From contig RDYP01000026.1 in NCBI GenBank assembly GCA_004293445.1, positions 1 to 37,498 of the forward strand: 37,498 nt of DNA. Reading direction: 5' to 3'. Of the stretch, positions 100-19,412 are shown piece by piece. This DNA is from Verrucomicrobiota bacterium (lineage in GTDB: Bacteria > Verrucomicrobiota > Verrucomicrobiia > Verrucomicrobiales > Akkermansiaceae). The notes under the pieces were generated by a model. The model had not been told where the DNA came from and searched no databases. It worked only from the letters and a program-made list of their open reading frames with translations. Both the position numbers and the translations under genes were made by a program. The number at the start of each line of letters is the position of its first letter. Within the stretch, counting starts at the first letter, position 1.

Positions 100-789
100 A
101 TCCGCCAAACTCAAACGCGCCGACGGGAAACAACGCACGAAGTCAGCATCGGGCGGCGCCACGATCTCCATCGCCCCGCCGTTCCACGGATGCTCCAAAC
201 GCAGCGACTTCGCCTGCAGCAGCATCCTCGTTCCCGTCCCCAAAGCCGCCCCCAACTCATCGCTCCGCTCCCGCCCGGCGTATCGATAGTCGCCCACGAT
301 CGGAAATCCCGCCTGCTGCAAATGTCGGCGAATCTGATGAAAACGGCCCGTGAAGGGCTCCGCGCGCAGCAGCGATAACGTCAAATCGGCCATTCCCGGA
401 AAGCCACAGGCCAGCTCCACCCGTCGAAATTCCGTCCGCGCCGCCAATTCCGGCTCCTCAGGACTCTTCCGCAGCGGCATTTCACAGCACCACTCCTCTT
501 CGGTCGCTCCACAGACCACCGCAAGGTAGCGCTTCGCGACCCGACGCTGCTCAAATGCCTGCTGCACCCGCGTCGAGGTCGCCCGGTCCAGCGCGAATAA
601 AAGCACGCCCGAGGTCGGCCGATCCAAGCGATGAATCGGATACACCGGTCGGCCCAACTCATCCCTCAAGCGCTTCATCGCAATCCACTCCGGACCCTCC
701 GGTTCCCGCCCCGGATGCACGATCATTCCCGCCGGCTTGTCGATCGCCACGAGAAACTCGTCCTGAAAAAGGTAGCGGAGAGGCGTCAT
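94..789 (-). CDS. truC: RluA-family pseudouridine synthase, TruC-like
   Basis: This predicted cytoplasmic enzyme isomerises uridine to pseudouridine in RNA. The TruC subgroup modifies U65 of tRNA. The 231-residue product opens with a QDEFLVAIDKPAG segment and carries the motif HRLDRPTSG with catalytic Asp56. Later it has FTGRFHQIRRHL and GDYRYAG, both usual for the family. HRLDRPTSG and the lack of an S4 domain fit TruC better than RluC or RluD. The reading frame stays open upstream to 915, but that extension does not resemble the family, so I start at the Met just before the conserved PLRYLFQDE. The stop codon TAG lies inside the CTAG that borders the IS end, so the gene ends exactly at the insertion boundary and appears intact. 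The choice of TruC over another RluA-type enzyme is moderate. Confidence 0.85.
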   Translation of the reverse strand: MTPLRYLFQDEFLVAIDKPAGMIVHPGREPEGPEWIAMKRLRDELGRPVYPIHRLDRPTSGVLLFALDRATSTRVQQAFEQRRVAKRYLAVVCGATEEEWCCEMPLRKSPEEPELAARTEFRRVELACGFPGMADLTLSLLRAEPFTGRFHQIRRHLQQAGFPIVGDYRYAGRERSDELGAALGTGTRMLLQAKSLRLEHPWNGGAMEIVAPPDADFVRCFPSARLSLADA

Positions 790-1017
790 GGCACAGCGTT
801 GCGCACCAGTCTCATGCCCCGGGTATGACACCCCCGTCAATCCCGCAGGGCCACCACCCACGCGCTTCACATCACGCCGCTTCATCCTGCCACCCCAACG
901 CCAAAAGCCCCGCACCTCAGCGCCGCATCCGGCACGGAACCTGATTCACCTCGCCCCATGCCACCGCCAGTGTCCCGACCATTGCCAAGCAGCAGCAATC
1001 CGGGCATACCGAATCCC

Positions 1018-3552
1018 ATGTCGGCGTCCATCGCTCCCCAAAGCCCCCTGCCCGCCACCTATCAACGCGGGACCTGGGATGAAATGGTCGCGGCCGACGG
1101 CCAAGTGAACCCCTCTTGGGCCCACATCGCCGCATGGCTTGACAAGCTTTCCCCCGAACAAGCCGGCGCTACCGGTGCCGAAATCCGCCGCCTACTCCGC
1201 GAAAACGGCGTCACCTACAGCGTCCACGGCGCACCCGATGGCGAACACCGCGCTTGGCAGCTCGATGCCGTGCCCTGGGTCGTCTCCGAACAGGATTGGA
1301 AAAACGTCGAAAATGGGCTGATTCAACGCGCCGAGCTGCTCGATTTCGTCCTCACCGATCTCCACGGCGAACAAACCCTCATCCGCGACGGCTGGCTCCC
1401 CCCGGAACTCATTCACGCCCACCACGGCTACCTCCGGCCCTGCCACGGCATGAAGCTGGCCTCAAAACGCCAACTCATCCTCTACGCCGCCGACCTCGCA
1501 CGCGGTCCCGACGGGAGGATGTGGATCGTCAACGACCGGACCCAAGCCCCCTCCGGCAGCGGCTACGTCGTCGAGAACCGCGGCGTCATGACACGCGCCA
1601 TGCCACGACTGTTCCACCGCACCGGCATCCGCCGCATCGCCGGCTTCTTCCGAACCCTTCGCCAAACCCTGGAATCCTTCCCCGCCCACGCCGGCGCACG
1701 CGAACCCCGCGTGGTCATCCTCACCCCCGGTCCACAGAACGAAACCTATTTCGAACACGCCTTCCTCGCTTCCTACCTCGGCTACTCGCTCGTCCAAGGC
1801 GACGATCTCACCGTGCGCGATGGCCGCGTCTGGCTCCGCTCGCTTGGCGGACTGGAGCCCGTCGACGTCATCGTCCGCCGCGTCGACGCCTGGTTCTGCG
1901 ATCCTCTCGAACTCAAGGAAGACTCCCAACTCGGCGTACCCGGCCTGCTTGAAGCCATGCGCGCCGGCCACGTCGCCGTCGTCAACCACCCCGGCAGCGG
2001 CGTCTTGGAAAACCCCGGCCTCATGGCCTTCCTACCCGGTATCTGCCGCCACTTCCGCAGCGAAGAACTCATCCTACCGGCTGCAGCCACGTGGTGGTGC
2101 GGCGAGAAAAAAGCCCGCGACACCGTCCTCGCCCGCCTCGATAAAATGGTCGTTAAAGCCATCCACCGAGCCCCCACCTTCGATACCATCTTCGGCTCCA
2201 CCCTGGACCGTAGCGAACTGAAAAAACTCCGCGACCGCATCCTCGCCGCGCCGGAATGCTTCGTCGGCCAAGAACAAGTCGGCTTTTCCACCCAACCCTG
2301 CCTCAACGGCAGCAACATCGAAGCCCGCCGAGGCGTGCTCCGCGGCTTCGCCACCTCCACCCCCGACGGCCGCTACATGGTCATGCCCGGCGGCCTCACC
2401 CGCATCGCTGCCTCCCCCGACGCCCTCATCGTATCCAGCCAGCTCGGCGGGATCTCCAAGGACACTTGGGTCCAAGGAAACGACGCCGAACCCTTCGTCA
2501 GCCTCTGGTCCGAAAATGACGACATCGCCGCCGAAGCGGACTCGCGGAACGTCCCCAGCCGATCCGGCGAAAACCTCTTCTGGACCGGCCGCTACGCAGA
2601 ACGCGCCGAAGGCACCGCCCGCCTGCTGCGACGCGCCGTCATGAGCTTCGTCGAAGCGATTGGCGACGACGAGAACCAACTCCGCCGCCACCGCGAGATC
2701 CTGATGGGCGGACTTCTCGCCACGACCAATGCCGCTCCCGTCCACCCCGGCGAAGATTTCGCCGCCGTCAGCGATGAAGAGGAAGTGATCTCACTCCTCA
2801 CCAACGCCCATCGCATCGGCTCCCTCGCCGGCAATCTCCGCTCCTTCCGCAACGCCGCCTACACCGTGCGCGATCTCTGGTCGCCCGACTCCTGGCGCGT
2901 GATCGAAGCCGTCATCCGCGAATGGGTCGAAGACACGCCCTCAGTCCAAGCCGACCTCGACGGCTACACCGACCCGCTCAACCGACTCATCATCCACTTC
3001 ACCGCCCTCCTCGGACTGAACCTCGAAAGCATGACCCGCGATGCGGGATGGCGATTGCTCGACTCCGGCCGCCGCATCGAACGCGCCCAATTCCTCCTCG
3101 GGATCATCCGCAGTTTTCTCGTCGAAGCACGCCCCGCCGCCGAGGAACAGCTGGTCATGGAAACGGTCCTCGCCGCCTCAGACAGCCTAGTCACCTATCG
3201 CAAACGCTACCGCACGCATCCCCGCATCGAACTCGTGCTCGAACTGCTCCTGATGGAACCGAACAACGCCCGCTCCCTTCTCTACCAAGTCCAGCGACTC
3301 GGCGGCAATATCGACCACCTGCCACGACAACAGGACGGCGCGCGCCTGACGAAAGAACAGCGCATTCTCATCGAAACCAGCAGCCAACTCCGCCTCGCCG
3401 ACATCACCATCCTCGCAGCCACTAGCGGAGGCCGACGAAGGAAACTCGAGGCCTTCGTCGACCACATGAGCAGCTCCTTGGGCAACCTCTCCAACGCCCT
3501 GACCCTCACCTACTTCCGCCACGCCGACCGCCCGCATTTCCTTCACGGCTGA
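1018..3552 (+). CDS. Circularly permuted ATP-grasp / alpha-E fusion protein
   Basis: The N-terminal part (about residues 1-500 of 844) matches the DUF404/DUF407 proteins, a circularly permuted type-2 ATP-grasp fold. Landmarks are NGVTYSVHG, the NDRTQAPSGSGY loop near 172-183, the RRVDAWFCDP region near 290, NHPGSGVLENP, and DGRYMVMPGGLTRIA near 450. After a short linker the alpha-E (DUF403) helical domain begins near 516 with ENLFWTGRYAERAEGTARLL and runs to the C-terminus. The two domains are often separate neighbouring genes; here they are one polypeptide. ATP-grasp enzymes join a carboxylate to an amine using ATP, and this family is predicted to make peptide-like bonds. The substrate is unknown. 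A transglutaminase-fold gene follows after 37 bp and is probably co-transcribed. An in-frame ATG at 958 would add 20 low-complexity residues. I prefer 1018, but no clear ribosome site decides it. Confidence 0.88.
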   Translation: MSASIAPQSPLPATYQRGTWDEMVAADGQVNPSWAHIAAWLDKLSPEQAGATGAEIRRLLRENGVTYSVHGAPDGEHRAWQLDAVPWVVSEQDWKNVENGLIQRAELLDFVLTDLHGEQTLIRDGWLPPELIHAHHGYLRPCHGMKLASKRQLILYAADLARGPDGRMWIVNDRTQAPSGSGYVVENRGVMTRAMPRLFHRTGIRRIAGFFRTLRQTLESFPAHAGAREPRVVILTPGPQNETYFEHAFLASYLGYSLVQGDDLTVRDGRVWLRSLGGLEPVDVIVRRVDAWFCDPLELKEDSQLGVPGLLEAMRAGHVAVVNHPGSGVLENPGLMAFLPGICRHFRSEELILPAAATWWCGEKKARDTVLARLDKMVVKAIHRAPTFDTIFGSTLDRSELKKLRDRILAAPECFVGQEQVGFSTQPCLNGSNIEARRGVLRGFATSTPDGRYMVMPGGLTRIAASPDALIVSSQLGGISKDTWVQGNDAEPFVSLWSENDDIAAEADSRNVPSRSGENLFWTGRYAERAEGTARLLRRAVMSFVEAIGDDENQLRRHREILMGGLLATTNAAPVHPGEDFAAVSDEEEVISLLTNAHRIGSLAGNLRSFRNAAYTVRDLWSPDSWRVIEAVIREWVEDTPSVQADLDGYTDPLNRLIIHFTALLGLNLESMTRDAGWRLLDSGRRIERAQFLLGIIRSFLVEARPAAEEQLVMETVLAASDSLVTYRKRYRTHPRIELVLELLLMEPNNARSLLYQVQRLGGNIDHLPRQQDGARLTKEQRILIETSSQLRLADITILAATSGGRRRKLEAFVDHMSSSLGNLSNALTLTYFRHADRPHFLHG

Positions 3553-3589
3553 CCTCCGCGAGGCGATCCCACCCACCCCTTCCCACCCC

Positions 3590-4462
3590 ATGCGCTACCG
3601 CATCCGCCACCGGACAACCTACCGCTACGATGTCCCGGCCAATCTTTGCCACAACGAGGCTCGGCTCCGACCACTCGATCTCCCCGGCCAACGCTGCTTG
3701 AAATGGAAACTCAGCATCGACCCTGAACCCGAGTTCCACCGTACCCGCCGCGATTCCTTCGGAAACTTCATCGATTACTTCTCGATCCAACGCCCCCACC
3801 CCCAACTCGACATCACCGCCGAAAGCGAAGTCGAAGTCCTCTCCGCCGGCCAACTCCCCCTGGAAACCGGCGGGCCTTGGGACCGCCTGCGCGAAACCCT
3901 GCTCGCCTCGAAAGACCCCGCCTCCCTCGAAGCCCGCGCCTTCGCCCTCTCCTCCCCCCTCATCCCCGTCCTGCCGGAACTGGCCGATTTCGCCAGGCCC
4001 GACTTCCCACCCGATCGCTGCATCCTCGAAGCCGTCGCCGCCCTCAATGCGCGGATCTTCCGCGACTTCAAGTTCGACCCCGACTTCACGACCGTGGCCA
4101 CGCCCGTCGCCGAAGTCCTCCTAAACCGCCGCGGCGTTTGCCAGGACTTCGCCCAATTGATGATCGCCGCTCTCCGCTCGCTCGGCCTGCCCGCTCGCTA
4201 CGTCTCGGGCTACCTCGAAACCCTTCCCCCACCCGGAAAGCCCAAACTCGTCGGCGCGGATGCATCCCACGCCTGGGTCTCCATCTTCGTCCCTGGACAA
4301 GGCTGGCTGGACTTCGATCCCACCAACAACGTCCGCCCCGGAGAACGACACATCACCGTCGCCACCGGTCGGGATTACCGCGACGTTTCCCCCCTCCGCG
4401 GAGTGACAGTCGGCGGTGCCAGCCACTCGCTGAAGGTCTCGGTCGATGTCTCCCCGCTCTGA
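3590..4462 (+). CDS. Transglutaminase-like cysteine peptidase partner of the ATP-grasp/alpha-E protein
   Basis: The 290-residue product begins MRYRIRHRTTYRYD, typical of the bacterial transglutaminase N-terminal beta domain, followed by a transglutaminase core. The catalytic triad is visible: Cys184 in RRGVCQDFAQ, His227 in ASHAWVS and Asp243 in LDFDPTNN. All three are intact. There is no signal peptide or membrane segment, so it is probably cytoplasmic. Proteins of this type are more often amide-hydrolysing peptidases than cross-linkers. They recur beside permuted ATP-grasp and alpha-E genes, where they are predicted to cut, transfer or trim the product of the ligase. It lies 37 bp downstream of that fusion gene on the same strand. 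Activity and substrate are inferred only. Confidence 0.9.
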   Translation: MRYRIRHRTTYRYDVPANLCHNEARLRPLDLPGQRCLKWKLSIDPEPEFHRTRRDSFGNFIDYFSIQRPHPQLDITAESEVEVLSAGQLPLETGGPWDRLRETLLASKDPASLEARAFALSSPLIPVLPELADFARPDFPPDRCILEAVAALNARIFRDFKFDPDFTTVATPVAEVLLNRRGVCQDFAQLMIAALRSLGLPARYVSGYLETLPPPGKPKLVGADASHAWVSIFVPGQGWLDFDPTNNVRPGERHITVATGRDYRDVSPLRGVTVGGASHSLKVSVDVSPL

Positions 4463-4555
4463 ATTTCCGTCAACCCGAAGACCCAAAAGCCGAAATTCAT
4501 TGTAAATAAAGGTTGATCGAATACCGGGGACAACTGATTACCAAGCCCCTACACC

Positions 4556-5521
4556 ATGTCCACCCCGCCCTCTGCTCCCTCCGCAAAGTTCTTTTCCCGA
4601 TCCCTCGTGATCGCCTCGCTACTTGCCGCCAGCTCCCCCGCTGCGACTTCCGTGTTCCTAGACAGCTCGGCAGCCGGCAACAATGCAGCGGTCGCCACTG
4701 CCTACGGCGACTCGATCTACCTGATCCAGCCCGGCATCAACGTGAACCCGGCCTTCAAGGTGGAAGATGGCAAGACCAACTGGTCCAAGGACAACATCAG
4801 CGGCTTCAGCAGCTCCACCGACATGGAGCCTCTGCCTATCCATCAAGTTCCCGTCATTTCCTACGGAGGACTCCACTACATCGCGCTCGGCGTCGACTTC
4901 AATGAGACGGGCTCCAGCTCCGACTTCGATGTCGTCAACCTCATGCTCTGGGTCGGCCCAGCCAGCGCCAGCACGCTCGCCGTCGCCATTCAGAACGATC
5001 CCAACATCGGAGCTCTGACGTGGGCAACCTCCGCCACCAACCAGATGAAGAACTCGTGGGAAAGCGGCATCCGCACCATGGAGAATAATCCGGCCAACTC
5101 CGCCCAGGGCATCGATCTCATCTACCAACAAAATGCCAACCCACAATTGAACGTCGCAGGCGATGCCATGCCGTACGGGTCCGACCCGAAACGCGTCTAT
5201 TCAAACGGGCTCTCATCCCTGGGTTCGAACGAGGCGGATATCGCGATCCTCGTCCCCTATTCCGTGCTCATCGGTAGAAATTCAAGCGAGGTCCTCTACG
5301 TTGGCCTGCAAACCGGCTCCATGACCGATGGCGGCAGCGACCGAGTCGGCTTCATCGATCCGACCACCCTCGTCAATGGCGGCTACCTGCAGCAGCAGGG
5401 CGTCCCCATCAGCACCACCTTCGTCCAGCCTGGTACCTCGATCACGGTTCCGGAACCCTCCAGCGCCGCCCTCGGCCTCGGTGCCCTCGCCCTCTGCCTG
5501 GTTCGCCGCCGCCGCGACTGA
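4556..5521 (+). CDS. PEP-CTERM sorting-domain secreted protein of unknown function
   Basis: This 321-residue product has an N-terminal signal peptide (hydrophobic stretch SLVIASLLAASSPAATS, residues about 16-33). The C-terminus is a classic PEP-CTERM tail: the VPEP box, a short hydrophobic helix (ALGLGALALCL), then the basic end VRRRRD. In this system the exosortase/archaeosortase EpsH-type machinery processes the tail during export. The middle is rich in Ser, Asn, Gly and Thr, with few charged residues and no recognised enzymatic domain, and looks like a beta-rich surface or matrix protein. It starts 93 bp after the transglutaminase gene, in a relatively AT-rich gap that probably holds its own promoter. 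A strong hairpin follows the stop. No exosortase gene is in this window. Confidence 0.85.
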   Translation: MSTPPSAPSAKFFSRSLVIASLLAASSPAATSVFLDSSAAGNNAAVATAYGDSIYLIQPGINVNPAFKVEDGKTNWSKDNISGFSSSTDMEPLPIHQVPVISYGGLHYIALGVDFNETGSSSDFDVVNLMLWVGPASASTLAVAIQNDPNIGALTWATSATNQMKNSWESGIRTMENNPANSAQGIDLIYQQNANPQLNVAGDAMPYGSDPKRVYSNGLSSLGSNEADIAILVPYSVLIGRNSSEVLYVGLQTGSMTDGGSDRVGFIDPTTLVNGGYLQQQGVPISTTFVQPGTSITVPEPSSAALGLGALALCLVRRRRD

Positions 5522-10708: not shown

Positions 10709-11716
10709 ATGGAATACGCATCCGAAACCGAAGTCAGCACCGCCGGCAAACATGTCCGCTCCCTCTCCGCCGCGCTCAATCAAGTGCTGTTCGGCCAAGA
10801 GGAACTTATCGACCTCGTCCTCACCGGAGTTCTAGCCCGTGGTCATATCCTGCTCGAAGGCCTGCCCGGCCTTGGCAAGACCGAGCTGGTCAAAGGCCTT
10901 TCCAAATTGCTCCGCCTCGACACCAAGCGCGTTCAGTTCACCCCCGACCTCCTCCCCGGCGACATCACCGGCAATCCCGTCCTTCAGGAGGTCGATGGCC
11001 GCCGCGCCTTCATTTTCCAACCAGGCCCCCTTTTCACCAACATCGTCCTTGCCGACGAAATCAACCGCGCCTCGCCGAAGACCCAGTCCGCCCTGCTCGA
11101 AGCCATGCAGGAACGCCGGGTGACGGTCCTCGGCGAAACCCACGAGCTGCCCAGACCCTTCTTCGTCCTCGCCACCCAGAACCCGATCGAGCTCGAAGGA
11201 ACCTACCCACTGCCCGAAGCCCAGCTCGACCGCTTCCTTTTCAAGCTCGAAGTCACCCGCAACCGCGTCGAAACCCTCGAGCGCATCGTTACCCAACGCG
11301 AGCTCGGCAGCGAACCGAAGGTCGATCCCATCATGGACGCGACCACGCTCGACGAAGTCCTGAACCTCGTCCGCCGCATCTACCTGCCCGATGTCGTGGC
11401 AAATTACATCGCCCGGCTTGTCGACGGCACCCACCCCGGACAGAGCAGCGCCGCCCGCGGCATCCGCTTCGGAGCCAGCCCCCGCGCCGCGCTCTCGCTC
11501 GCCTCCGCAGCCAAGGCACGAGCCCTCATGAACGAACGCACCCACGCTTCCTTCGAAGACGTTCGCTTCGTCGCCCCATCCGTCCTCCGCCACCGCATCG
11601 TCCTTGAATACAACGCCCGCGTGGAGGGCCTCACCCACAACGACCTCATCCGCTCCCTCCTCGAGGAAATCCCCTTCCAAGGCAATCCCACCCCGAAGAC
11701 CCTCAAGCCTGCCTGA
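10709..11716 (+). CDS. MoxR-family AAA+ ATPase
   Basis: MoxR ATPases act as chaperone-like machines that mature or activate partner complexes, usually with DUF58 and VWA proteins encoded nearby. The 335-residue product has Walker A GLPGLGKTE (about residues 52-60), Walker B VLADEINRASP (about 113), sensor-1 VLATQNPIE and the usual PLPEAQLDRFLF segment. The C-terminal helical lid domain follows. It is soluble and has no signal peptide. It is the first gene of an eight-gene plus-strand cluster that runs to about 22.1 kb and includes a DUF58 and two VWA proteins. That is the classical company of MoxR and supports a cell-envelope or stress role. Confidence 0.95.
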   Translation: MEYASETEVSTAGKHVRSLSAALNQVLFGQEELIDLVLTGVLARGHILLEGLPGLGKTELVKGLSKLLRLDTKRVQFTPDLLPGDITGNPVLQEVDGRRAFIFQPGPLFTNIVLADEINRASPKTQSALLEAMQERRVTVLGETHELPRPFFVLATQNPIELEGTYPLPEAQLDRFLFKLEVTRNRVETLERIVTQRELGSEPKVDPIMDATTLDEVLNLVRRIYLPDVVANYIARLVDGTHPGQSSAARGIRFGASPRAALSLASAAKARALMNERTHASFEDVRFVAPSVLRHRIVLEYNARVEGLTHNDLIRSLLEEIPFQGNPTPKTLKPA

Positions 11717-11761
11717 TCCGACCGCGTCACCCGTCGTCAATCATCCATCGACCCCTCTGCT

Positions 11762-13525
11762 ATGCGCCTCCTCCTCTTCCTTCTCGCCGCCTTCCCGCTT
11801 CTGGCGCAGGAAAACCTCTTTCTCCACGTCCCCGATCCGAAGTCCAAGGCCAAGGTCGAAGCCACCGCTCTTTTCAACCGCCCCGCACCCGGTGGCTTCC
11901 TGCCGGTCCTCGTCACGGTAACGAATCCTTCGGAAAATGACCGCGACTTCGAAATCTCCGCCACCTCCTCCGACAACGCTTACGGCAATTACGGCAGCGA
12001 ACTCACCTCGAGCTTCAACCTCACCGCTCCGGCAGGAAAAACCAGCCGCCATCAGATTCTGATCCCCTGCACCACCGGCCTCAGCAGCGGCAACTCACCG
12101 TCGGTCGCAATCCGCCTCGCCGGCTCTTTCGGCTTCGCCAACGGCCACCTCAGCGCCACTTGGGGCGATACCCAACCCGCCATTCTTCTCAGCGAACCTC
12201 TTTTCACACCGAACGCCTCCGCTCTCGACGCCGCCGCAAGCGCGGGCCACGCCGCACGCTTCGGCAGCACATCATTCGCGGCGAAATTCGATCCCCGCGA
12301 ACTACCCGAAGACTGGCGGGCTTACTCCGGCTTCGACTCCATCGTCCTCACCGACACCGACTGGGGCGTCGCCAGTCCCGGCGCGCGCAACGCCATCCTC
12401 CGCTGGAACCGCCTTGGCGGCAGCATCATCATCTACGCCACTTCCAGTAATTCCGACCTCGCCACCCTGGGCATCGCCTCCGGCGGCAAGGGTCATCGCT
12501 CCGCCGAGCGCAGCTTCGGCAGCGTCGCCATCCATCCCATCGCAACCGACCTGAAGCTCGATGCCGCCAAGGCCGTCGCGGAAATCGATGCCGCCGCGAA
12601 GCTCCCAACCCTCAATGCCTCGATCCGCGAAGACTTCTCCAACGGAAACTGGCCTCTCCAGACGGAATTCGGCAGCGCCCGCTACAACCACACGCTTTTC
12701 ATCCTCATTCTGATCGCCTTCGGCATCCTCGTCGGCCCCGTCAATCTCTTCGTCTTCGCGAAGTCCGGCCGCCGCCATCGACTCTTCATCACCACACCCA
12801 TCATCGCGCTTGGCACCAGCGTCCTTCTCATCGGTCTGATCATCGCCATCGATGGCTTCGGTGGCCGTGGTATGCGCACGGTGGTGATGGAAGTCCGGCC
12901 CGATGACAACGAGCACTCCGCCTATCTCCTCCAGGAACAAATTTCCCGCACCGGTGTCCTTTTCAGCGGCGGCTTCAGCCTCGACGAACCCGCCACCCTC
13001 GCCCCTCTTCCCATCGCATCCAGCCAGTGGGCCCGTCTCACCGCATCGAACTACGGCGGCGGCATGCGCTATGAGGTGAAGCCCGATGACGGAAAATTGC
13101 TCCTCGACGGCGACTGGTTCCAAAGCCGCTCCGAACAAGGCCACCTCGTCCGCGCCATCATCCCCACACGCGGCCGCATCGAGGCACACAACGAGGCTGG
13201 CCCACCGTCCATGCTATCCACTTTCGACTTTCCCATCGAAACCCTGTGGTTCTCGGACCATGCCGGCGGCATCTGGCGCGCTGATCAAATCGAGCCCGGC
13301 AAGACCTTCAAGTGCCAACCCGCCAGCACCTCCGATCTCGCCGATTTCGTCGCCAAAGCCTCCGCCTCCCTCAGCCATCGCAGCGGCAAAGCCTTCACTC
13401 CGCTCGCCTCCCGCCCCGGCCATTTCATCGCCGTGACCGATGCAGCACCCGGCATCGATACCTTCCGCGGCATCAAATGGCAGCGCACCCGAACCTATCT
13501 CACAGGGCCCATCGTTCGGCCATGA
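11762..13525 (+). CDS. Membrane protein of the MoxR cluster, unknown function
   Basis: The 587-residue product has a signal peptide (MRLLLFLLAAFPLLAQE), then about 290 residues predicted to lie outside the cytoplasm. Two close transmembrane helices follow near 312-340 (FILILIAFGILVGPVNLFVF) and 347-370 (TPIIALGTSVLLIGLIIAI). A further 220-residue domain comes after them. The short basic loop SGRRHR between the helices suggests that both large domains face the periplasm. The first part contains a beta-sandwich-like start (GGFLPVLVTVTNPSENDRDF). A Rossmann-like stretch with ILRWNRLGGSIIIYATSS recalls the GATase-like regions of Bat proteins. I do not recognise a named family. It lies 45 bp after moxR and is probably part of the same transcript. 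Confidence 0.8.
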   Translation: MRLLLFLLAAFPLLAQENLFLHVPDPKSKAKVEATALFNRPAPGGFLPVLVTVTNPSENDRDFEISATSSDNAYGNYGSELTSSFNLTAPAGKTSRHQILIPCTTGLSSGNSPSVAIRLAGSFGFANGHLSATWGDTQPAILLSEPLFTPNASALDAAASAGHAARFGSTSFAAKFDPRELPEDWRAYSGFDSIVLTDTDWGVASPGARNAILRWNRLGGSIIIYATSSNSDLATLGIASGGKGHRSAERSFGSVAIHPIATDLKLDAAKAVAEIDAAAKLPTLNASIREDFSNGNWPLQTEFGSARYNHTLFILILIAFGILVGPVNLFVFAKSGRRHRLFITTPIIALGTSVLLIGLIIAIDGFGGRGMRTVVMEVRPDDNEHSAYLLQEQISRTGVLFSGGFSLDEPATLAPLPIASSQWARLTASNYGGGMRYEVKPDDGKLLLDGDWFQSRSEQGHLVRAIIPTRGRIEAHNEAGPPSMLSTFDFPIETLWFSDHAGGIWRADQIEPGKTFKCQPASTSDLADFVAKASASLSHRSGKAFTPLASRPGHFIAVTDAAPGIDTFRGIKWQRTRTYLTGPIVRP

Positions 13526-13608
13526 AAGTGCCTGCACGCCACCCCGGGGAGAGAGTGCCGACTTCCGCAGGCAAGATCTTCCCGCCGCGATCCCACCGCC
13601 ATCACAAC

Positions 13609-13631
13609 GTCGGCTAAAGCCACCGCTCCGC
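13609..13631 (+). repeat. Short interspersed palindromic repeat, copy 1
   Basis: The sequence contains GGCTAAAGCC followed by ACCGCTCC. A close relative with GGCTGAAGCC and AGCGCTCC occurs at 17091-17114, also between genes of the same cluster. The core is an imperfect palindrome (GGCT...AGCC), like REP-type elements. It lies in the 132-bp gap before the ABC ATPase gene. Confidence 0.5.
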
Positions 13632-13657
13632 AAATCCCTTCATCGACGCCTTCCCGC

Positions 13658-14659
13658 ATGTCCACCGCCGCCATCAAAGTCACCAATCTCTACCGCTACT
13701 TCGGCCCCTTGAAGGCCGTCAACGGCATCAGCTTCGAGATCCCACACGGCTCGGTCTGCGGCTTCGTCGGTGCCAACGGCGCGGGCAAGACGACCACCAT
13801 GCGAATCCTCGCATCCCTCGACTACCCCACCATGGGCAGCGCGGAAATCTGCGGGATCAATGTCGTCCACCACCCCGAAGAAGTGCGCAAGCTCATCGGC
13901 TGGATGCCCGACCACTTCGGGAATTACGAACACATGACCGTGGTCGAATACCTCGACTTCTACGCACGGGCCTTCGGCTTCTCCGGCAAGGAGCGCCGCG
14001 ACCGCGTCCGCGAGGTCATGGAGTTCACCGACCTCGTAACCCTCGCCGACCGATTCTCAAACAAGCTCTCCAAAGGCATGACCCAGCGCCTTTGCCTCGG
14101 CCGCGCACTGCTGCACGATCCCCAAGTCCTCATCATGGACGAACCCGCCGCCGGTCTCGACCCCAAGGCCCGCGTCGAACTCAAACACCTCATCCGCGTC
14201 CTCGCCCAGGAAGGAAAGACCATCTTCATTTCCTCCCACATCCTCTCCGAGCTCGGCGAGATGTGCGACTCCCTGCTCTTCGTCAACGGCGGCCGCATCG
14301 TTCACCACGGCGACGCAGAAGCCCTGAAGCAAGGCACTGATTCGATGGGCGGAATGCTCTTCGACGTCCAGCTGCTTGGAGCTCCGCAAACCCTCTCCGA
14401 CTGGTGCGCCGTCCACCCACACGTCGAGTTCCTCGAATCACGTAAAACGGGTGGCCGAATCCGCATCGAATCCACCGATCTCGATCGCGCGGCAGAAGTG
14501 CTTTCACGAATGATCAAGGACGGCCTCCAAGTCGTCGAGTTCCACAAAGAGCAACGCAATCTTGAAGACGCTTTCATCGACATGCTCGGTCGTATCGACC
14601 GCGGTGAAGGCGCTCTTCCCACCGCTCCCGCCAGCACCTCAACGGAAATCGTACCCTGA
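13658..14659 (+). CDS. ABC transporter ATP-binding protein (ABC-2 exporter type)
   Basis: The 333-residue product is a single nucleotide-binding domain with Walker A GANGAGKTTT (about residues 38-47), a Q-loop region, the signature LSKGM, Walker B VLIMDEPAAGLDP and the switch His in SSHIL. A C-terminal extension of about 100 residues follows the core, as in ATPases of ABC-2 exporters such as the CcmA/GldA type. It energises the permease encoded one base downstream. The location inside a MoxR/Bat cluster recalls gliding- and envelope-linked GldA systems, but no substrate is indicated. An interspersed repeat sits in the 132 bp before the gene, and an internal promoter there is possible. Confidence 0.93.
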   Translation: MSTAAIKVTNLYRYFGPLKAVNGISFEIPHGSVCGFVGANGAGKTTTMRILASLDYPTMGSAEICGINVVHHPEEVRKLIGWMPDHFGNYEHMTVVEYLDFYARAFGFSGKERRDRVREVMEFTDLVTLADRFSNKLSKGMTQRLCLGRALLHDPQVLIMDEPAAGLDPKARVELKHLIRVLAQEGKTIFISSHILSELGEMCDSLLFVNGGRIVHHGDAEALKQGTDSMGGMLFDVQLLGAPQTLSDWCAVHPHVEFLESRKTGGRIRIESTDLDRAAEVLSRMIKDGLQVVEFHKEQRNLEDAFIDMLGRIDRGEGALPTAPASTSTEIVP

Positions 14660-14660
14660 C

Positions 14661-16148
14661 ATGAGCACTGCACCCACGAAACAGGCCGGCGGTCCCGACG
14701 AGTTCAGCGACCGCCTCTCACCGATGCTCGTCAAGGAGCTCCGCCAAGGTCTCCGCGCACGGACTTTCGTCATCCTCTTCCTCGCCCTTCAGGCCTTCCT
14801 CGGCGTGATCCTTCTGTCAGCCATCGGCGCAGCCGCCCCTGAGCGCGCAGGCCAGACGGTCAGCTCGGTGATCTTCTTCTTTTTCTCCATGTCCGTGCTG
14901 ATCGTCCAGCCACTGCGCGGCATCGGTTCGCTGCACAGCGAGATCAAGGGCAACACCATCGACCTGATGGTCCTGACCCGCCTCAGCGCTTGGCGAATCG
15001 TGCTCGGCAAGTGGATCGCCATCGTCAGCCAGTCCGCTCTCCTCCTCGCGGCCATCGCACCCTACCTGATCCTCCGCTACTTCTTCGGCCGGATGAACCT
15101 CTTCGCCGAGCTCCACCTGCTCGCGCTCATCTTCATCGGCTCCGCCGCATTCACCGCCCTCACGGTCGGACTCTCCGCCGTGCCCTCAATCTTCATCCGC
15201 GGCCTCGTGCCACTGGTCGGAGCCGTCTACCTCGCCGGCGGCATCTCCGCCGTTTGCTTCGGCAACGGGATCGACGAAGTGGTGAAGTTCTGCACCCTCC
15301 AAGAACCCAAGAGTGGCTGGGTCCTCCTCACCATCCTGATCTTTTTGGCTTACTTTGGCTGGTTCGCACTCGCGCTGGGCGCCTCCATGATCGCACCACA
15401 GGCCGAGAACCACAGCAGCGCCCGCCGCCTGATCACCCTCCTCGCCGCGATCGCACTCGGCGCGCTGAATCACTTCGCCGCCTTTGAACGCGAGTTCCTC
15501 GCCATCATGCTCGCCGTTCTCGTCACACCCGCCATGGTCATCGCCCTTACCGAACCATTCTACCTGCTGCCACCGATCTGTCGCGACTTCGTCCGCCGCG
15601 GTGCAATCGGCCGCCTCGCCGGGCGCTTCCTCTACCCCGGCTGGCCCAGCGGCGTGCTCTTCACCGGCCTCCTGATCGGCACCGCCTCGGTCGCAACCTT
15701 GCTGCCAAAACACTCGTTCACACCGGAGTTCGCGGAAGAAATGAAGATCGCCCTCAGCGGCAGTCTCGCCACTCTGCTGCTACCCGCCCTGATCCAACGA
15801 TTTTTACCGGACCGCTTCCGCCAAGGCTTCGGCATTTACCTACTCATCATGGCGATTCTCGGCGTGCTCGCCATCCTCGCCGGCCTCGTCGCCGCACAAA
15901 GCGAAGACGATTCCTTCCTCTGGGCCCTCTCGTGGATCCCGCCAGTCCAGTTGCCACTCATGGAATGGCTGCGCCGTTCAAGCTACCTCATCGGCAATTA
16001 CAGCAACCCGGAAATCTACTCGCTCCTCACACGCACGTCCCTCGGCATCACCGCCTTCTACTTCCTCGCCCTGCTCGTCGCCGCCCTGCGCCATTTCCCG
16101 AGCATCCGCGAAGTCGAAGCCGCCGCGAAATCCACCGACACCCCGTGA
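14661..16148 (+). CDS. ABC-2 type permease, about 12 membrane helices
   Basis: The 495-residue protein is almost entirely membrane-embedded, with about twelve hydrophobic helices. It begins with the cytoplasmic segment LSPMLVKELRQGLRART, typical of ABC-2 permeases and their coupling helix. An LMVLTRLSAWRIVLGKW stretch near 100 is also usual for the family. It is the partner of the ATPase just upstream: the ATPase stop TGA and this ATG are separated by one base. I choose the 14661 start because the longer open frame lies over the ATPase gene. The stop overlaps the GTG start of the DUF58 gene, which suggests translational coupling. Substrate unknown. Confidence 0.9.
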   Translation: MSTAPTKQAGGPDEFSDRLSPMLVKELRQGLRARTFVILFLALQAFLGVILLSAIGAAAPERAGQTVSSVIFFFFSMSVLIVQPLRGIGSLHSEIKGNTIDLMVLTRLSAWRIVLGKWIAIVSQSALLLAAIAPYLILRYFFGRMNLFAELHLLALIFIGSAAFTALTVGLSAVPSIFIRGLVPLVGAVYLAGGISAVCFGNGIDEVVKFCTLQEPKSGWVLLTILIFLAYFGWFALALGASMIAPQAENHSSARRLITLLAAIALGALNHFAAFEREFLAIMLAVLVTPAMVIALTEPFYLLPPICRDFVRRGAIGRLAGRFLYPGWPSGVLFTGLLIGTASVATLLPKHSFTPEFAEEMKIALSGSLATLLLPALIQRFLPDRFRQGFGIYLLIMAILGVLAILAGLVAAQSEDDSFLWALSWIPPVQLPLMEWLRRSSYLIGNYSNPEIYSLLTRTSLGITAFYFLALLVAALRHFPSIREVEAAAKSTDTP

Positions 16149-17026
16149 CCGCCGACGACCTCGCACACTGCCACGCCCGCGCGCTCGCCGCCGCCGGCCG
16201 CCTGCGTCTGCCGCTGCGCTCCCGCGTCTGGAAAGGCCAGGCCGGTGAGTTTCAGGGAGCCGGCACAGGGTCGTCGCTCGATTTCCAAGACCACCGAACC
16301 TACGTTCCCGGCGACGATCCCCGCCACATCAACTGGCAGGCCTACGCCCGGACCGGCCAGTACACAATGAAGCTCTACCGCGAGGAAGTGCGACCGGTCG
16401 TCGATGTCGTGCTCGACGCCTCGGAGTCGATGTTCTTCGAGCCCCTGAAAGCCACCCGCGTTGCCGATTTGTTCTACCTCACGGTCGAGTCCGCCCGCCA
16501 CAGCGGTGCCGCCACCAGCGTTCATCTCGTCCGCGGCGATGCCACACGCACCATCCCGCCGGAGCTCGTCGCCGCCCATCGCTGGCTCGACGAAGCACGC
16601 TCTCTTTCAGCACGCGATTCCGCCGCCCCGCCCGACTTCTCCCGCATCCCCTTCCGCGGCAATGCGATCCGAGTGTTGATCTCCGACCTCCTCTTCCCCG
16701 GCGACCCCGAACCTGCCCTCCGCTGCCTCGCCGCCCGCCAAGGCTGCCCCATCCTGCTGGCACCTTTCCTCCAAAGCGAAGCCGCTCCGGAGTGGACCGG
16801 CAACTACGAGTTCGTCGATGCCGAACGGAAGTCACGCCACCCGCATCGCATCGAGCCCTCGGTCCTCCGGCGCTACCGCGAAAGTTACATCCAACACTTC
16901 GCCCTCTGGAAGAATGCCTGCCGCCGCCACCAATCCCGCATGGCCCGCGTCCCCTGCGAGCCCGATTTCCAGACCTCCCTCTTCGCCGAAGCCGTCCCCA
17001 GCGGCGCGCTGGAAAGTTCCAAGTGA
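16145..17026 (+). CDS. DUF58 protein (MoxR partner)
   Basis: The 293-residue product has the DUF58 hallmark DHRTYVPGDDPRHINWQAYART (about residues 49-70; key residues P, G, D, R, W), followed by LDASESM, the weak MIDAS-like strand of the VWA-type fold. There is no membrane segment. DUF58 proteins are regular companions of MoxR and are thought to be its substrates or adaptors. The start is GTG, inside a GTGA overlap with the permease stop. An ATG-led longer frame (from 15932) covers the permease gene and encodes His/Arg/Pro-rich sequence, so it is rejected. The last codons (ESSK and stop) are formed by a short repeated motif that continues into the gap. Confidence 0.9.
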   Translation: MTADDLAHCHARALAAAGRLRLPLRSRVWKGQAGEFQGAGTGSSLDFQDHRTYVPGDDPRHINWQAYARTGQYTMKLYREEVRPVVDVVLDASESMFFEPLKATRVADLFYLTVESARHSGAATSVHLVRGDATRTIPPELVAAHRWLDEARSLSARDSAAPPDFSRIPFRGNAIRVLISDLLFPGDPEPALRCLAARQGCPILLAPFLQSEAAPEWTGNYEFVDAERKSRHPHRIEPSVLRRYRESYIQHFALWKNACRRHQSRMARVPCEPDFQTSLFAEAVPSGALESSK

Positions 17027-17037
17027 GAAGTTCCAAG
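17014..17037 (+). repeat. Tandem AAGTTCCAAG repeat at the DUF58 gene end
   Basis: AAGTTCCAAG occurs twice here, separated by TGAG. The first copy supplies the last sense codons and stop of the DUF58 gene. A related sequence in the opposite direction occurs at 19379-19399, before the last gene of the cluster. Confidence 0.5.
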
Positions 17038-17090
17038 GGCCAACAGCGACCATGATGCTACCAATAGAAGACCGCCCCCTCCGGCGGAAC

Positions 17091-17114
17091 GCAGGCTGAA
17101 GCCAGCGCTCCCGC
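17091..17114 (+). repeat. Short interspersed palindromic repeat, copy 2
   Basis: GGCTGAAGCC followed by AGCGCTCC closely resembles the element at 13609-13631. It lies in the 122-bp gap between the DUF58 and BatA-like genes. A second inverted pair (CCGCC...GGCGG) lies just upstream. It may be a REP-type element or a structured mRNA segment. Confidence 0.5.
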
Positions 17115-17148
17115 ATCGACGATCCACCATCCCTCATCCAACTCCCCC

Positions 17149-18969
17149 TTGCTCACCCTCACCAACCCCGCCGGCCTATGGGCGCTCCTCGGAATCCCCG
17201 CGGTGCTCGCCATCCATTTCCTCCAACGCCAGGCGGTCGTGCTGCCATCGTCGACGCTCTTTTTGTTAGAAAGAACCCAGCGCGAGTCCGCCAGCGGCAG
17301 ACGCTTCGACCGCCTGATGAATTCCGTTCCGCTGTGGATGCAACTCCTCGGCATCATGCTCCTCACTTGGCTGCTCGCTGAACCCCGCTACCAGAAAGCC
17401 CGGAGCACCCAGCGAGTCGCGGTAGTGCTCGATTCCTCCGCCTCGATGTCCGTCGTAAAGAACGCGCTCAAGCAAGAACTCGTCGCCTCACTACCCGACC
17501 TCCAAGGCCAAGCCACGGCGCTGGAACTCACCTTGCTCGACTCCGCACCCGGCAAATCCCGGCTCTACGCCGGCTCCTCGACGCAGGACTTCGCCGCGGC
17601 GCTCGATGCCTGGCAACCACGAGCCGGCCTGACCGATCCCGCCCCCAGCCTCCGCCTCGCCCGTTCACTCGTCGCCCGCGAAGGCCTCGTCATCCACGCC
17701 ACCGACACCCCGCTGGAAAACCCGCCCTTCGACGCACGCCTACTCTCCATCGGCGAACCGATCGACAACGTCGGCTTCACCGGGGTCACCATCGTCGAAA
17801 AAGAAGGCGGCACGGTCTGGCAAGCCCTTGTTCGAAACTACTCCGAACATCGTACTACAAGAAGCTGGCAGCTCGAATGGCCCGGCGGCGGCCGCAGCCA
17901 ACCAAAATCCTTCGAGCTCGGGCCCGGCGCGATCCTCACCCTCCAGGCCGCCTTCCCGGAAAACGCCACGCGCGCCCGCCTCGTGCTCTCGCCCGATCGC
18001 TTCAGCCTCGACGACTCGCTGCCGATGGTCGTCCCAAAACCCAAGACCCTCAAACTCTTCTCCGCCACCCGCGGAACACACGAAGAACTGGTCATCAAAC
18101 TCAGGCGCTCCCTCGCAGCGACAGAGACCACCAACGATGCCGCCGAAGCCGATCTCACGCTGCTTTCCTACGATCCCCTCGACCCCGTCGCCCCCTCCGG
18201 CAACTCGGTGCTCTTCGTCCATGATGAAACCCAAGGAGGCAGCTACCTGAAGGGCGGCATCGTCGCCGCAGCCCACCCGCTCATCGATGGCCTAAATTGG
18301 CAGTCCCTCCTCGTTCGCGAGACCATTCAACTCGAACGCCGACCCTCCGACACCGTCCTTCTTTGGCAAGGCAGCCGCCCCCTCATCCTGCTCCGCGAGA
18401 ACGAAGCCACCGCCACCTCACCCGCCGGCCGCATGCTCGGCTTCAATTTCGACCTCCGCTTGTCAAATGCCAGCACCCAGCCGGCTTTCATCGTGATGCT
18501 CCACCGTTTCGCAGAAGAACTCCGCACGGCAAAAATCGCAGCTTCGACCGAACTTCTGGAATGCAGCCAACCCATCGTTCTCGCGGCCCGCAACGGCAGC
18601 GACGCCGCCCCCTTGAAAATCGAAACTCTCGACCTCGACGGCAAAGTCCTCTCCACCAGCACCCGCCCCGCCGCAGCGCGAGTCGACCTCGAGGCACCCA
18701 TCGATCCCGGCTTCCTGCAAGTCCACCAAGGCGACGCCGTTCTGCTCGATGCCGCCCTGCATTTCGCCGATACCCGCGAGGCCGACTTCCGCGCCTGCGC
18801 CCCCGCCAATACCCTTGGCGAAGGCAGCGCCGCCGCGGTCGAGCGCCACACCGAAGAAGACCACTGGTGGCGCATCTGGCTTCTCCTCCTGCTCCTCGCT
18901 CTCCTCGTCTCCTGGCATTTCACTCGGGAAAGGGAATCACTCCGCAGCACACCCGACGTCACGCAATGA
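17149..18969 (+). CDS. BatA-like protein with VWA domain
   Basis: The 606-residue membrane protein starts LTNPAGLWALLGIPAVLAIHFLQ, the BatA/aerotolerance-regulator N-terminal domain with a first helix. A second helix follows near 63-80. A VWA-type domain comes next with the metal site DSSAS (Asp95). The middle part resembles the beta-rich and GATase-like parts of long BatA-like proteins, and a final helix (IWLLLLLLALLVSWHF) lies near the C-terminus. The bulk is expected in the periplasm. The start is TTG at 17149: it places LTLTNPAGLW at the N-terminus exactly as in the family, and no ATG in frame does so. The stop overlaps the next start as ATGA. Role inferred from family: envelope integrity or stress. 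Confidence 0.85.
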   Translation: MLTLTNPAGLWALLGIPAVLAIHFLQRQAVVLPSSTLFLLERTQRESASGRRFDRLMNSVPLWMQLLGIMLLTWLLAEPRYQKARSTQRVAVVLDSSASMSVVKNALKQELVASLPDLQGQATALELTLLDSAPGKSRLYAGSSTQDFAAALDAWQPRAGLTDPAPSLRLARSLVAREGLVIHATDTPLENPPFDARLLSIGEPIDNVGFTGVTIVEKEGGTVWQALVRNYSEHRTTRSWQLEWPGGGRSQPKSFELGPGAILTLQAAFPENATRARLVLSPDRFSLDDSLPMVVPKPKTLKLFSATRGTHEELVIKLRRSLAATETTNDAAEADLTLLSYDPLDPVAPSGNSVLFVHDETQGGSYLKGGIVAAAHPLIDGLNWQSLLVRETIQLERRPSDTVLLWQGSRPLILLRENEATATSPAGRMLGFNFDLRLSNASTQPAFIVMLHRFAEELRTAKIAASTELLECSQPIVLAARNGSDAAPLKIETLDLDGKVLSTSTRPAAARVDLEAPIDPGFLQVHQGDAVLLDAALHFADTREADFRACAPANTLGEGSAAAVERHTEEDHWWRIWLLLLLLALLVSWHFTRERESLRSTPDVTQ

Positions 18970-19355
18970 AATCTCCCCTCCACTCGCTGCTCGTCGCCCT
19001 GATCCCTTTCATCGGAGCCTCCTGCGCCTCGACCACAGCCTACCGCCGCGAGAACCAGCTCATCACCGTCCACCGCAAAGGCATCGGCACGATGCCAGAA
19101 AACTACTGGATCATCGGCAGCAGGCCCGACGCCATCAACGCAACCGAAGACCTCCGCATTCATGCCATGCGCCCGGACAAAACGAACTTTCCCCTCAAAT
19201 GCACGGGCTTCGTGGATACCCGCCACGAGGGCTGCATCGATATTCGACTCGCCCAACAACAAGGCAGCATGTGGCAAGCATTCCCCCTCAACGGCCGCCA
19301 CAAGCTCGTCGACACAACCAAGCCACGCCCCTTCTACCGCTGGCTCATCCCCTGA
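18966..19355 (+). CDS. Small probable lipoprotein of the MoxR/Bat cluster
   Basis: The 129-residue product begins MKSPLHSLLVALIPFIGASC, a signal sequence with a Cys at residue 20 that could be the lipid anchor, although the -3 residue (Gly) is not ideal for a lipobox. The mature part is charged and has no domain I recognise. It includes LITVHRKGIGTMPENYWIIG and ends PFYRWLIP. Its ATG overlaps the stop of the BatA-like gene (ATGA), so translation is probably coupled and the gene is a true member of the cluster. The longer open frame upstream is Arg/His-rich shadow sequence over the BatA-like gene. Confidence 0.75.
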   Translation: MKSPLHSLLVALIPFIGASCASTTAYRRENQLITVHRKGIGTMPENYWIIGSRPDAINATEDLRIHAMRPDKTNFPLKCTGFVDTRHEGCIDIRLAQQQGSMWQAFPLNGRHKLVDTTKPRPFYRWLIP

Positions 19356-19378
19356 GCCGCCGGCCCTTCTTTTTTCGC

Positions 19379-19399
19379 ACGTGGAACTTCGAACTTGGA
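19379..19399 (-). repeat. AAGTTC/GAAGTTCCA repeat before the last cluster gene
   Basis: Read on the minus strand this is TCCAAGTTCGAAGTTCCACGT, close to the AAGTTCCAAG tandem at 17014-17037 but in the opposite direction. The core TTCGAA is palindromic. It occupies the gap between the small lipoprotein gene and the large VWA gene. Confidence 0.45.
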
Positions 19400-19412
19400 T
19401 CTTTCTCCAACC

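Follow-up and report, generated by a model that had tools for sequence, protein, structure and literature searches.

Fused ATP-grasp/Alpha-E protein with a degenerate putative ATP site and its adjacent transglutaminase in a Verrucomicrobiota genome

The gene pair and its domains

The window is the whole 37,498-bp stretch of contig RDYP01000026.1 from an Akkermansiaceae bacterium of the phylum Verrucomicrobiota, and the system in question is a pair of forward-strand genes encoding a fused circularly permuted ATP-grasp/Alpha-E protein followed by a transglutaminase-fold protein. The pair belongs to a widespread fused family, of which it is an unremarkable example, and forms one part of a larger set in its genome, not an autonomous system; the part that may be new is the reading of the fused protein as a pseudo-ligase. 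The first gene (1018–3552) encodes an 844-aa protein according to the open reading frame (ORF) list and Pfam; its start is unsettled, as an in-frame ATG at 958 would give a product of 864 aa, 20 aa longer. Pfam places the CP_ATPgrasp_2 domain at residues 86–464 (1273–2409; E 1.2e-147), with a full-length match to PF14403 (profile positions 1–374 of 374, 492 bits against a cut-off of 32), and CP_ATPgrasp_1 also matches residues 86–418. The helical Alpha-E domain (PF04168) follows at residues 513–833 (2554–3516; E 4.2e-66). A sequence-only reading of this DNA had described a single 844-residue protein joining these two families, and the profile searches that it called for uphold both domains. 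The second gene (3590–4462) begins after a gap of 37 bp and encodes a 290-aa protein with Bact_transglu_N (6e-31) and Transglut_core (1.4e-21) domains. The description of this neighbour as a transglutaminase-fold protein with an intact triad is also borne out, with Cys184 (4139–4141), His227 (4268–4270) and Asp243 (4316–4318) all within 4139–4318 on the forward strand. Neither protein of the pair is matched in NCBIfam or PADLOC.

The same arrangement is seen in related loci, in which a transglutaminase gene lies directly 3' of the fused gene in 103 of the 114 loci with sufficient flank. Among 105 such transglutaminases, the Cys and the His are each kept in 105 and the Asp in 102. An additional short transglutaminase (about 270 aa), whose N-terminal domain is weak, is repeatedly found next to the clusters (L034 6563–7363, L036 5050–5859, L080 13510 and L110 11450).

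The Alpha-E half was also modelled alone and is predicted to be all helical (predicted local distance difference test [pLDDT] 90.8). It looks intact because S514, R525, R529, G684 and E688 are invariant in 39 aligned Alpha-E sequences (27 fused and 12 separate); Y526 and R689 are conserved in at least 90%, and the conserved ER motif is present in the window protein. The model has no Foldseek match at an E value of 0.001 or better. NasR was considered as a relative of the fold (Z 9.5, root-mean-square deviation [rmsd] 6.5, 244 residues), and no meaning is attached to this match as its values are in a range common for helical bundles.

The retention of these Alpha-E residues, together with that of the triad, would suit an explanation in which the Alpha-E domain and the transglutaminase are the working enzymes and the ATP-grasp half merely binds an acceptor, for ATP-free transamidation or proteolysis. 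To our knowledge, no catalytic activity has been described for Alpha-E, and this counts against the explanation, as does the lack of a structural match for the Alpha-E model. Among comparable known systems are the mycobacterial genes Rv2566, Rv2567 and Rv2569c, for a DUF2126 protein, a fused ATP-grasp/Alpha-E protein and a nearby transglutaminase-like protein respectively. A paper on Rv2569c of M. tuberculosis describes it as a serine protease belonging to the 'YebA superfamily' (PMC11081392), which would favour proteolysis; the words transglutaminase, Rv2566 and Rv2567 are absent from the paper. A serine-protease report sits oddly with a Cys-His-Asp fold. Taken together, an Alpha-E and transglutaminase pair that works without ATP is improbable.

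Loss of putative ATP-site residues in the fused clade

The predicted model of the window ATP-grasp half (pLDDT 87.4, predicted template modelling score 0.86) keeps a glutathione-synthetase-type fold. Its closest solved structure is the protein data bank (PDB) entry 3n6x (Z 42.5, 447 residues, rmsd 3.1, 34% identity), and further fold matches are homoglutathione synthetase (Z 24.4), human glutathione synthetase (24.3), Cp1B (21.9) and glutathionylspermidine synthetase (about 21). At the level of sequence, the separate-ligase profile shows no link to the glutathione synthetases, and 3n6x is its sole credible match.

Residues were counted in 117 distinct fused proteins and 45 separate ATP-grasp proteins, with separate-ligase numbering for E/D163, N165 and D430. 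The initial set of 119 fused and 71 separate proteins held truncated pieces and duplicates, and these final sets were obtained by removing 32 rows (truncated at a locus end, duplicate loci or identical tails). Two entries initially labelled separate (L029 and L033) are fragments of fused genes. The E/D163 and N165 pair, a putative metal site, is present in 45/45 separate proteins and 0/117 fused proteins. The GGxG loop is found in 45/45 separate and 2/117 fused proteins, and D430 in 45/45 separate proteins versus 1% of the fused ones. In the window protein, the remodelled putative metal site at residues 172–176 (1531–1545, forward strand) reads N-D-R-T-Q, compared with E-D-N-x-R in the separate ligases. 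Residues 380–389 (2155–2184, forward strand) include K380 and have PTFD instead of the glycine-rich loop, which is GGYG in the separate ligases, and V440 (2335–2337, forward strand) takes the place of the Asp found in 45/45 separate ligases. Profile-profile alignment sets both motifs, metal site and glycine loop, opposite each other without gaps.

The assignment of metal or ATP binding to E163 and N165 follows from the motif and from mutants of Cp1B, in which Ala substitution of R139, D141, E163 or N165 (its own numbering) abolished or strongly cut activity (PMC12568646). By this alignment, the window protein appears to lack the acidic and Asn metal ligands and the glycine-rich phosphate loop of a functional ATP-grasp ligase. 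The sequence-only reading had called the protein a ligase and had named loss of ATP-binding residues on structural modelling as grounds against its view. The family stands and the predicted fold is kept; the ligase label is doubtful, as the putative metal and phosphate residues are lost by alignment in the protein (N172/R174, PTFD, V440) and in its clade.

The fused proteins form a single clade against all separate ligases (support 1.0), and the domain is conserved in its own manner. R104, D114, R188, D295, N323, G326 and D482 are present in 117/117 fused proteins. The separate ligases have 126 positions conserved at 95% or more. At least 90% of the fused proteins retain 35 of these, between half and 90% retain 50, and fewer than half retain the other 41. 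A simple counting method gives dN/dS values, for the window against a relative of the same genus (L047), of 0.13 for the ATP-grasp half, 0.23 for Alpha-E and 0.13 for the transglutaminase. Because the degenerate ATP-grasp domain is constrained (0.13) and its new motif is conserved, it does not appear to be decaying.

Two proteins from other genomes (L158 and L159) join a short Alpha-E to an ATP-grasp domain that has the canonical E-N and GGYG motifs; they fall outside the fused clade, were treated as a third group apart from the fused and separate sets, and probably represent an independent fusion. A 1098-aa fused protein (L054 6863–10159) has an ATP-grasp domain that begins only at residue 306 and may have branched off early within the fused clade, a placement with weak support (0.37).

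The new motif bears on whether the fused protein is instead an active ligase with a remodelled site, in which Arg174, Asp173 and other groups replace the Mg ligands and the loop and which adds a second amide bond. The motif D-R-x-Q-x-P-S-G is strongly conserved, with N165 replaced by R in 90/117 and R167 by Q in 89/117 fused proteins, K380 and D159 are mostly kept, and the domain is constrained. Against an active ligase, the E, the N, the glycine loop and D430 are lost jointly, no new consensus is found in the former glycine loop across the 117 fused proteins, and K380 itself is missing from some members (L050 and L147, for example). An active fused ligase is considered unlikely on this balance.

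Partner genes, regulation and history

The genome that holds the window (3.35 Mb in 49 contigs, 97.4% complete) encodes a second circularly permuted ATP-grasp on contig C21, where consecutive separate genes encode an ATP-grasp (475 aa; L003 9845–11272), an Alpha-E (346 aa) and a transglutaminase (308 aa). A third contig (C35) carries the gene of a 1152-aa protein whose domains are Bact_transglu_N, Transglut_core and DUF2126, the last described by Pfam as a putative amidoligase. The separate ligase trio and DUF2126 are thus both encoded in the same genome as the window pair, with the set spread over three contigs, and the compact two-gene form of the sequence-only reading is not self-contained.

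Co-occurrence was counted in 240 genomes of the window's phylum, 38 of a wider scan and 149 of the phylum of Occultella, as simple counts ignoring shared ancestry. In these whole-genome scans, copies were classed manually as fused or separate on the length of the open frame and the bit score, and sequences were inspected for the fetched loci; the separate copies of G270 and G257 have long open frames and were assigned by score. Alpha-E is present in 59/240 genomes of the window's phylum and the fused form in 51/240, with 35 of these fused genes, besides that of the window, fetched and seen as fused. All 51 genomes with the fused form also carry a separate copy, eight carry the separate copy only, and none carries the fused form only. 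For G054, only an Alpha-E fragment is listed, yet a separate ATP-grasp was located. DUF2126 is found in 43/240 genomes, comprising 42 of the 51 with the fused form and one (G086) with a separate copy only. Among the control genomes, Synechococcus elongatus and Caulobacter vibrioides have Alpha-E, and Synechococcus has DUF2126 as well. Six of the fetched loci (L034, L036, L038, L043, L044 and L045) bring together the separate ATP-grasp, separate Alpha-E, a DUF2126-type gene, the fused gene and a transglutaminase; L034 and L038 have a shorter DUF2126 gene, which adjoins an extra transglutaminase. The sequence-only reading had proposed such a tally of fused and split forms across Verrucomicrobiota, and it finds the fusion to be common.

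The fused form is a widespread clade that is common across bacterial phyla. The best 80 loci of a scan of bacterial genomes come from many phyla, with a fused-length ORF in 79 and an incomplete locus in L124. Among the 38 of these genomes that were searched whole, most of them from other phyla, a separate copy is present in 37; it is a separate Alpha-E in 36, and G240 has a separate ATP-grasp. In the phylum of Occultella, Alpha-E is present in 25/149 genomes. Seven of these have a fused-length Alpha-E match (G276, G308, G315, G351, G373, G390 and G400), and in each of the seven there is a separate ATP-grasp or Alpha-E as well. G376 and G365 have a single ATP-grasp with a short Alpha-E, the L158 and L159 proteins with canonical residues, and in G366 and G409 Alpha-E is matched weakly and PF14403 is not matched. 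A DUF2126-type gene lies directly upstream of the fused gene in 50/96 loci. The largest other neighbour clusters were read by eye as generic genes, such as a response regulator and an ABC transporter ATPase.

Neighbouring proteins in five loci (L081, L084, L090, L104 and L105) form one cluster, and the two that were tested both match PF00227, the family of proteasome, Anbu and HslV subunits. Anbu operons hold ATP-grasp, Alpha-E and transglutaminase genes together with Anbu (PMC5666114, PMC6376114), so that the window pair might assist Anbu-type protein turnover by tagging or handling what a proteasome-like particle degrades. This cluster of neighbours is present, however, in at least 5 of the 117 fused loci (flanks differ; ORFs within 8 kb were clustered), and the window's own genome, at 97.4% completeness, gives no match to PF00227, while 10 of 14 control genomes were positive. 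An accessory role in Anbu-type turnover is accordingly very improbable here.

Regulation of the separate operon was assessed with the sigma54-type pattern TGGCAC-N5-TTGCW, allowing at most two mismatches with the GG kept, in the 200 bp upstream of separate ATP-grasp genes. A site is present in 16 of 36 upstream stretches, which include relatives and are not independent, compared with a mean of 1.0 in dinucleotide shuffles (largest 3 of 100), 3 on the reverse strand and 0 at each of two intragenic positions. In the C21 operon, the site (L003 11300–11315) precedes the start of the separate ATP-grasp gene by 43 bp; it is one of eight matches in the whole locus, a chance-like count (6.2 expected). 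A relative of the same genus (L069) also has a site before its separate ATP-grasp, and RpoN is encoded in the window's genome. These observations point to nitrogen control of the separate operon, which in this genome is putative. Upstream of fused genes, a site is present in 5/116 (shuffles 3.2). A fused gene located behind the separate genes on the same strand could share their promoter, which is impossible in the window's genome. Sigma54 control of the window pair itself was considered and rejected, with 14 pattern matches in the window against a chance mean of 12.9 and none directly upstream of the pair.

The fused gene of the window is 81% identical to that of L047, 32% and 31% identical to those of the same-family loci L050 and L051, and 45% identical to that of L055 from another class. 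In the tree it groups with L039–L041, also of another class (support 0.91), and its dS to L047 is 0.67, compared with twice as much (1.34) for the separate ligase. Judged against the separate ligase in its genome, the window pair was plausibly acquired horizontally, and this would account for the scattering of the genes.

At the locus, a divergent pseudouridine synthase gene lies upstream of the fused gene, and a gene for a PEP-CTERM-motif protein begins 93 bp downstream of the pair on the same strand. The fused and transglutaminase genes look like an operon, and transcriptional read-through into the PEP-CTERM-motif gene is possible. A sigma70 scan of 700–4700 found no promoter, and terminators in that interval equal chance. 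Elsewhere in the window, a run of genes (10709–22109) encodes a MoxR ATPase (AAA_3), an ABC ATPase, DUF58, BatA and VWA proteins, presumably a familiar MoxR/DUF58/VWA-type operon; two ORFs inside it (11762–13522 and 14562–16145) have no Pfam match.

Proposed role and comparison with known systems

The explanation preferred here, with slightly better than even confidence, is that the fused protein is a pseudo-ligase joined to Alpha-E and acts together with the separate ligase, while the transglutaminase handles the product. The window pair would then be the accessory half of an amide-bond-forming system whose genes are dispersed. The separate circularly permuted ATP-grasp of C21 would be the working ligase, probably turned on through sigma54 under nitrogen limitation, in which ATP activates a carboxylate and an amine is joined to it. 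The window protein would be a paralogous ATP-grasp without the canonical Mg-ATP site, carrying an Alpha-E with conserved R and E residues, and may scaffold, present substrate to or regulate the working ligase and perhaps DUF2126 too. The adjacent Cys-His-Asp transglutaminase would then exchange or hydrolyse the amide of the product.

Several observations weigh against a silent partner of this kind. K380 is still K in 77/117 and R in 13/117 fused proteins, D159 is still D in 109/117, and the fold is kept; single glycines also persist in the fused loops, in 19/117 at position 376 and 27/117 at position 377. Nucleotide binding in another mode is possible, and metal and phosphate binding are assigned to the lost residues from alignment and the Cp1B paper. 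Constraint is stronger on the separate ligase, compared between the same two genomes (dN/dS 0.035). Only 30/117 loci, within limited flanks, show a separate ATP-grasp or Alpha-E near the fused gene, and the genes are dispersed in the window's genome. The partnership with the separate ligase is drawn from co-occurrence, for which shared ancestry was not corrected, and one metagenome-assembled genome (G245) has the fused form with no separate copy found in a whole-genome search. The window pair has no sigma54-type site, the best in the 400 bp upstream having three mismatches. For the Yersinia Anbu-operon proteins, a pull-down with Anbu as bait gave no specific interaction (PMC6376114).

The ATP-grasp, Alpha-E and transglutaminase families are widespread and are predicted makers of peptide-like products. 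The earlier statement that the substrate is not established agrees with the open-licence literature, in which no product, no defined reaction for this arrangement and no paper on an inactive ATP-grasp was found (Iyer et al. 2009 lies outside that scope). If the fused form is a pseudo-ligase, an assay that offers ATP and amino acids to it by itself would give a misleading negative result, and ATP-grasp ligases would join the enzyme folds that have conserved dead partners. More tentatively, the widespread pseudo-ATP-grasp/Alpha-E clade may provide a nearly indispensable, catalytically inactive partner for an active paralogous ligase. The two would belong to a multi-enzyme machine, so far unrecognised and switched by sigma54, that also includes DUF2126 and several transglutaminases, and would be the ligase equivalent of pseudokinase-kinase pairs.

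Among solved structures, the closest to the window ATP-grasp half is Mfla_0391 (3n6x, 'putative glutathionylspermidine synthase'), which differs in having the separate-type E-D-N, GGYG and Asp and no Alpha-E domain. The eukaryotic-type glutathione synthetase and the E. coli glutathionylspermidine synthetase share the fold (Z about 24 and 21 respectively) at only about 10% identity to the window protein. Both enzymes use E-x-N metal ligands, which have no counterpart in the window protein. The Anbu operons, cited in PMC5666114 and PMC6376114 with the peptide-synthesis system predicted by Iyer et al. 2009, resemble the C21 set, with its ATP-grasp, Alpha-E and transglutaminase in a row. The window pair differs from them as a fused paralogue with a degenerate putative ATP site in a genome without a PF00227 match. 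The cluster I35_5080-5083 of Burkholderia cenocepacia H111 encodes DUF404/407, DUF403, transglutaminase-like and large transglutaminase-like proteins and depends on NtrC and sigma54 (PMC5491218), as is suggested for the C21 operon; its ATP-grasp and Alpha-E are listed as separate genes, and the window pair differs in having no sigma54-type site. In Pseudomonas putida, related genes (PP_2688) are expressed more on nitrate than on ammonium (PMC8050072). The separate-type ATP-grasp of Yersinia bercovieri frees phosphate from ATP, on which Anbu, glutamine and glutamate had no effect (PMC6376114). This phosphate release and the nitrogen-linked expression of related genes are among the grounds on which the C21 ligase is proposed as the amide-bond maker.

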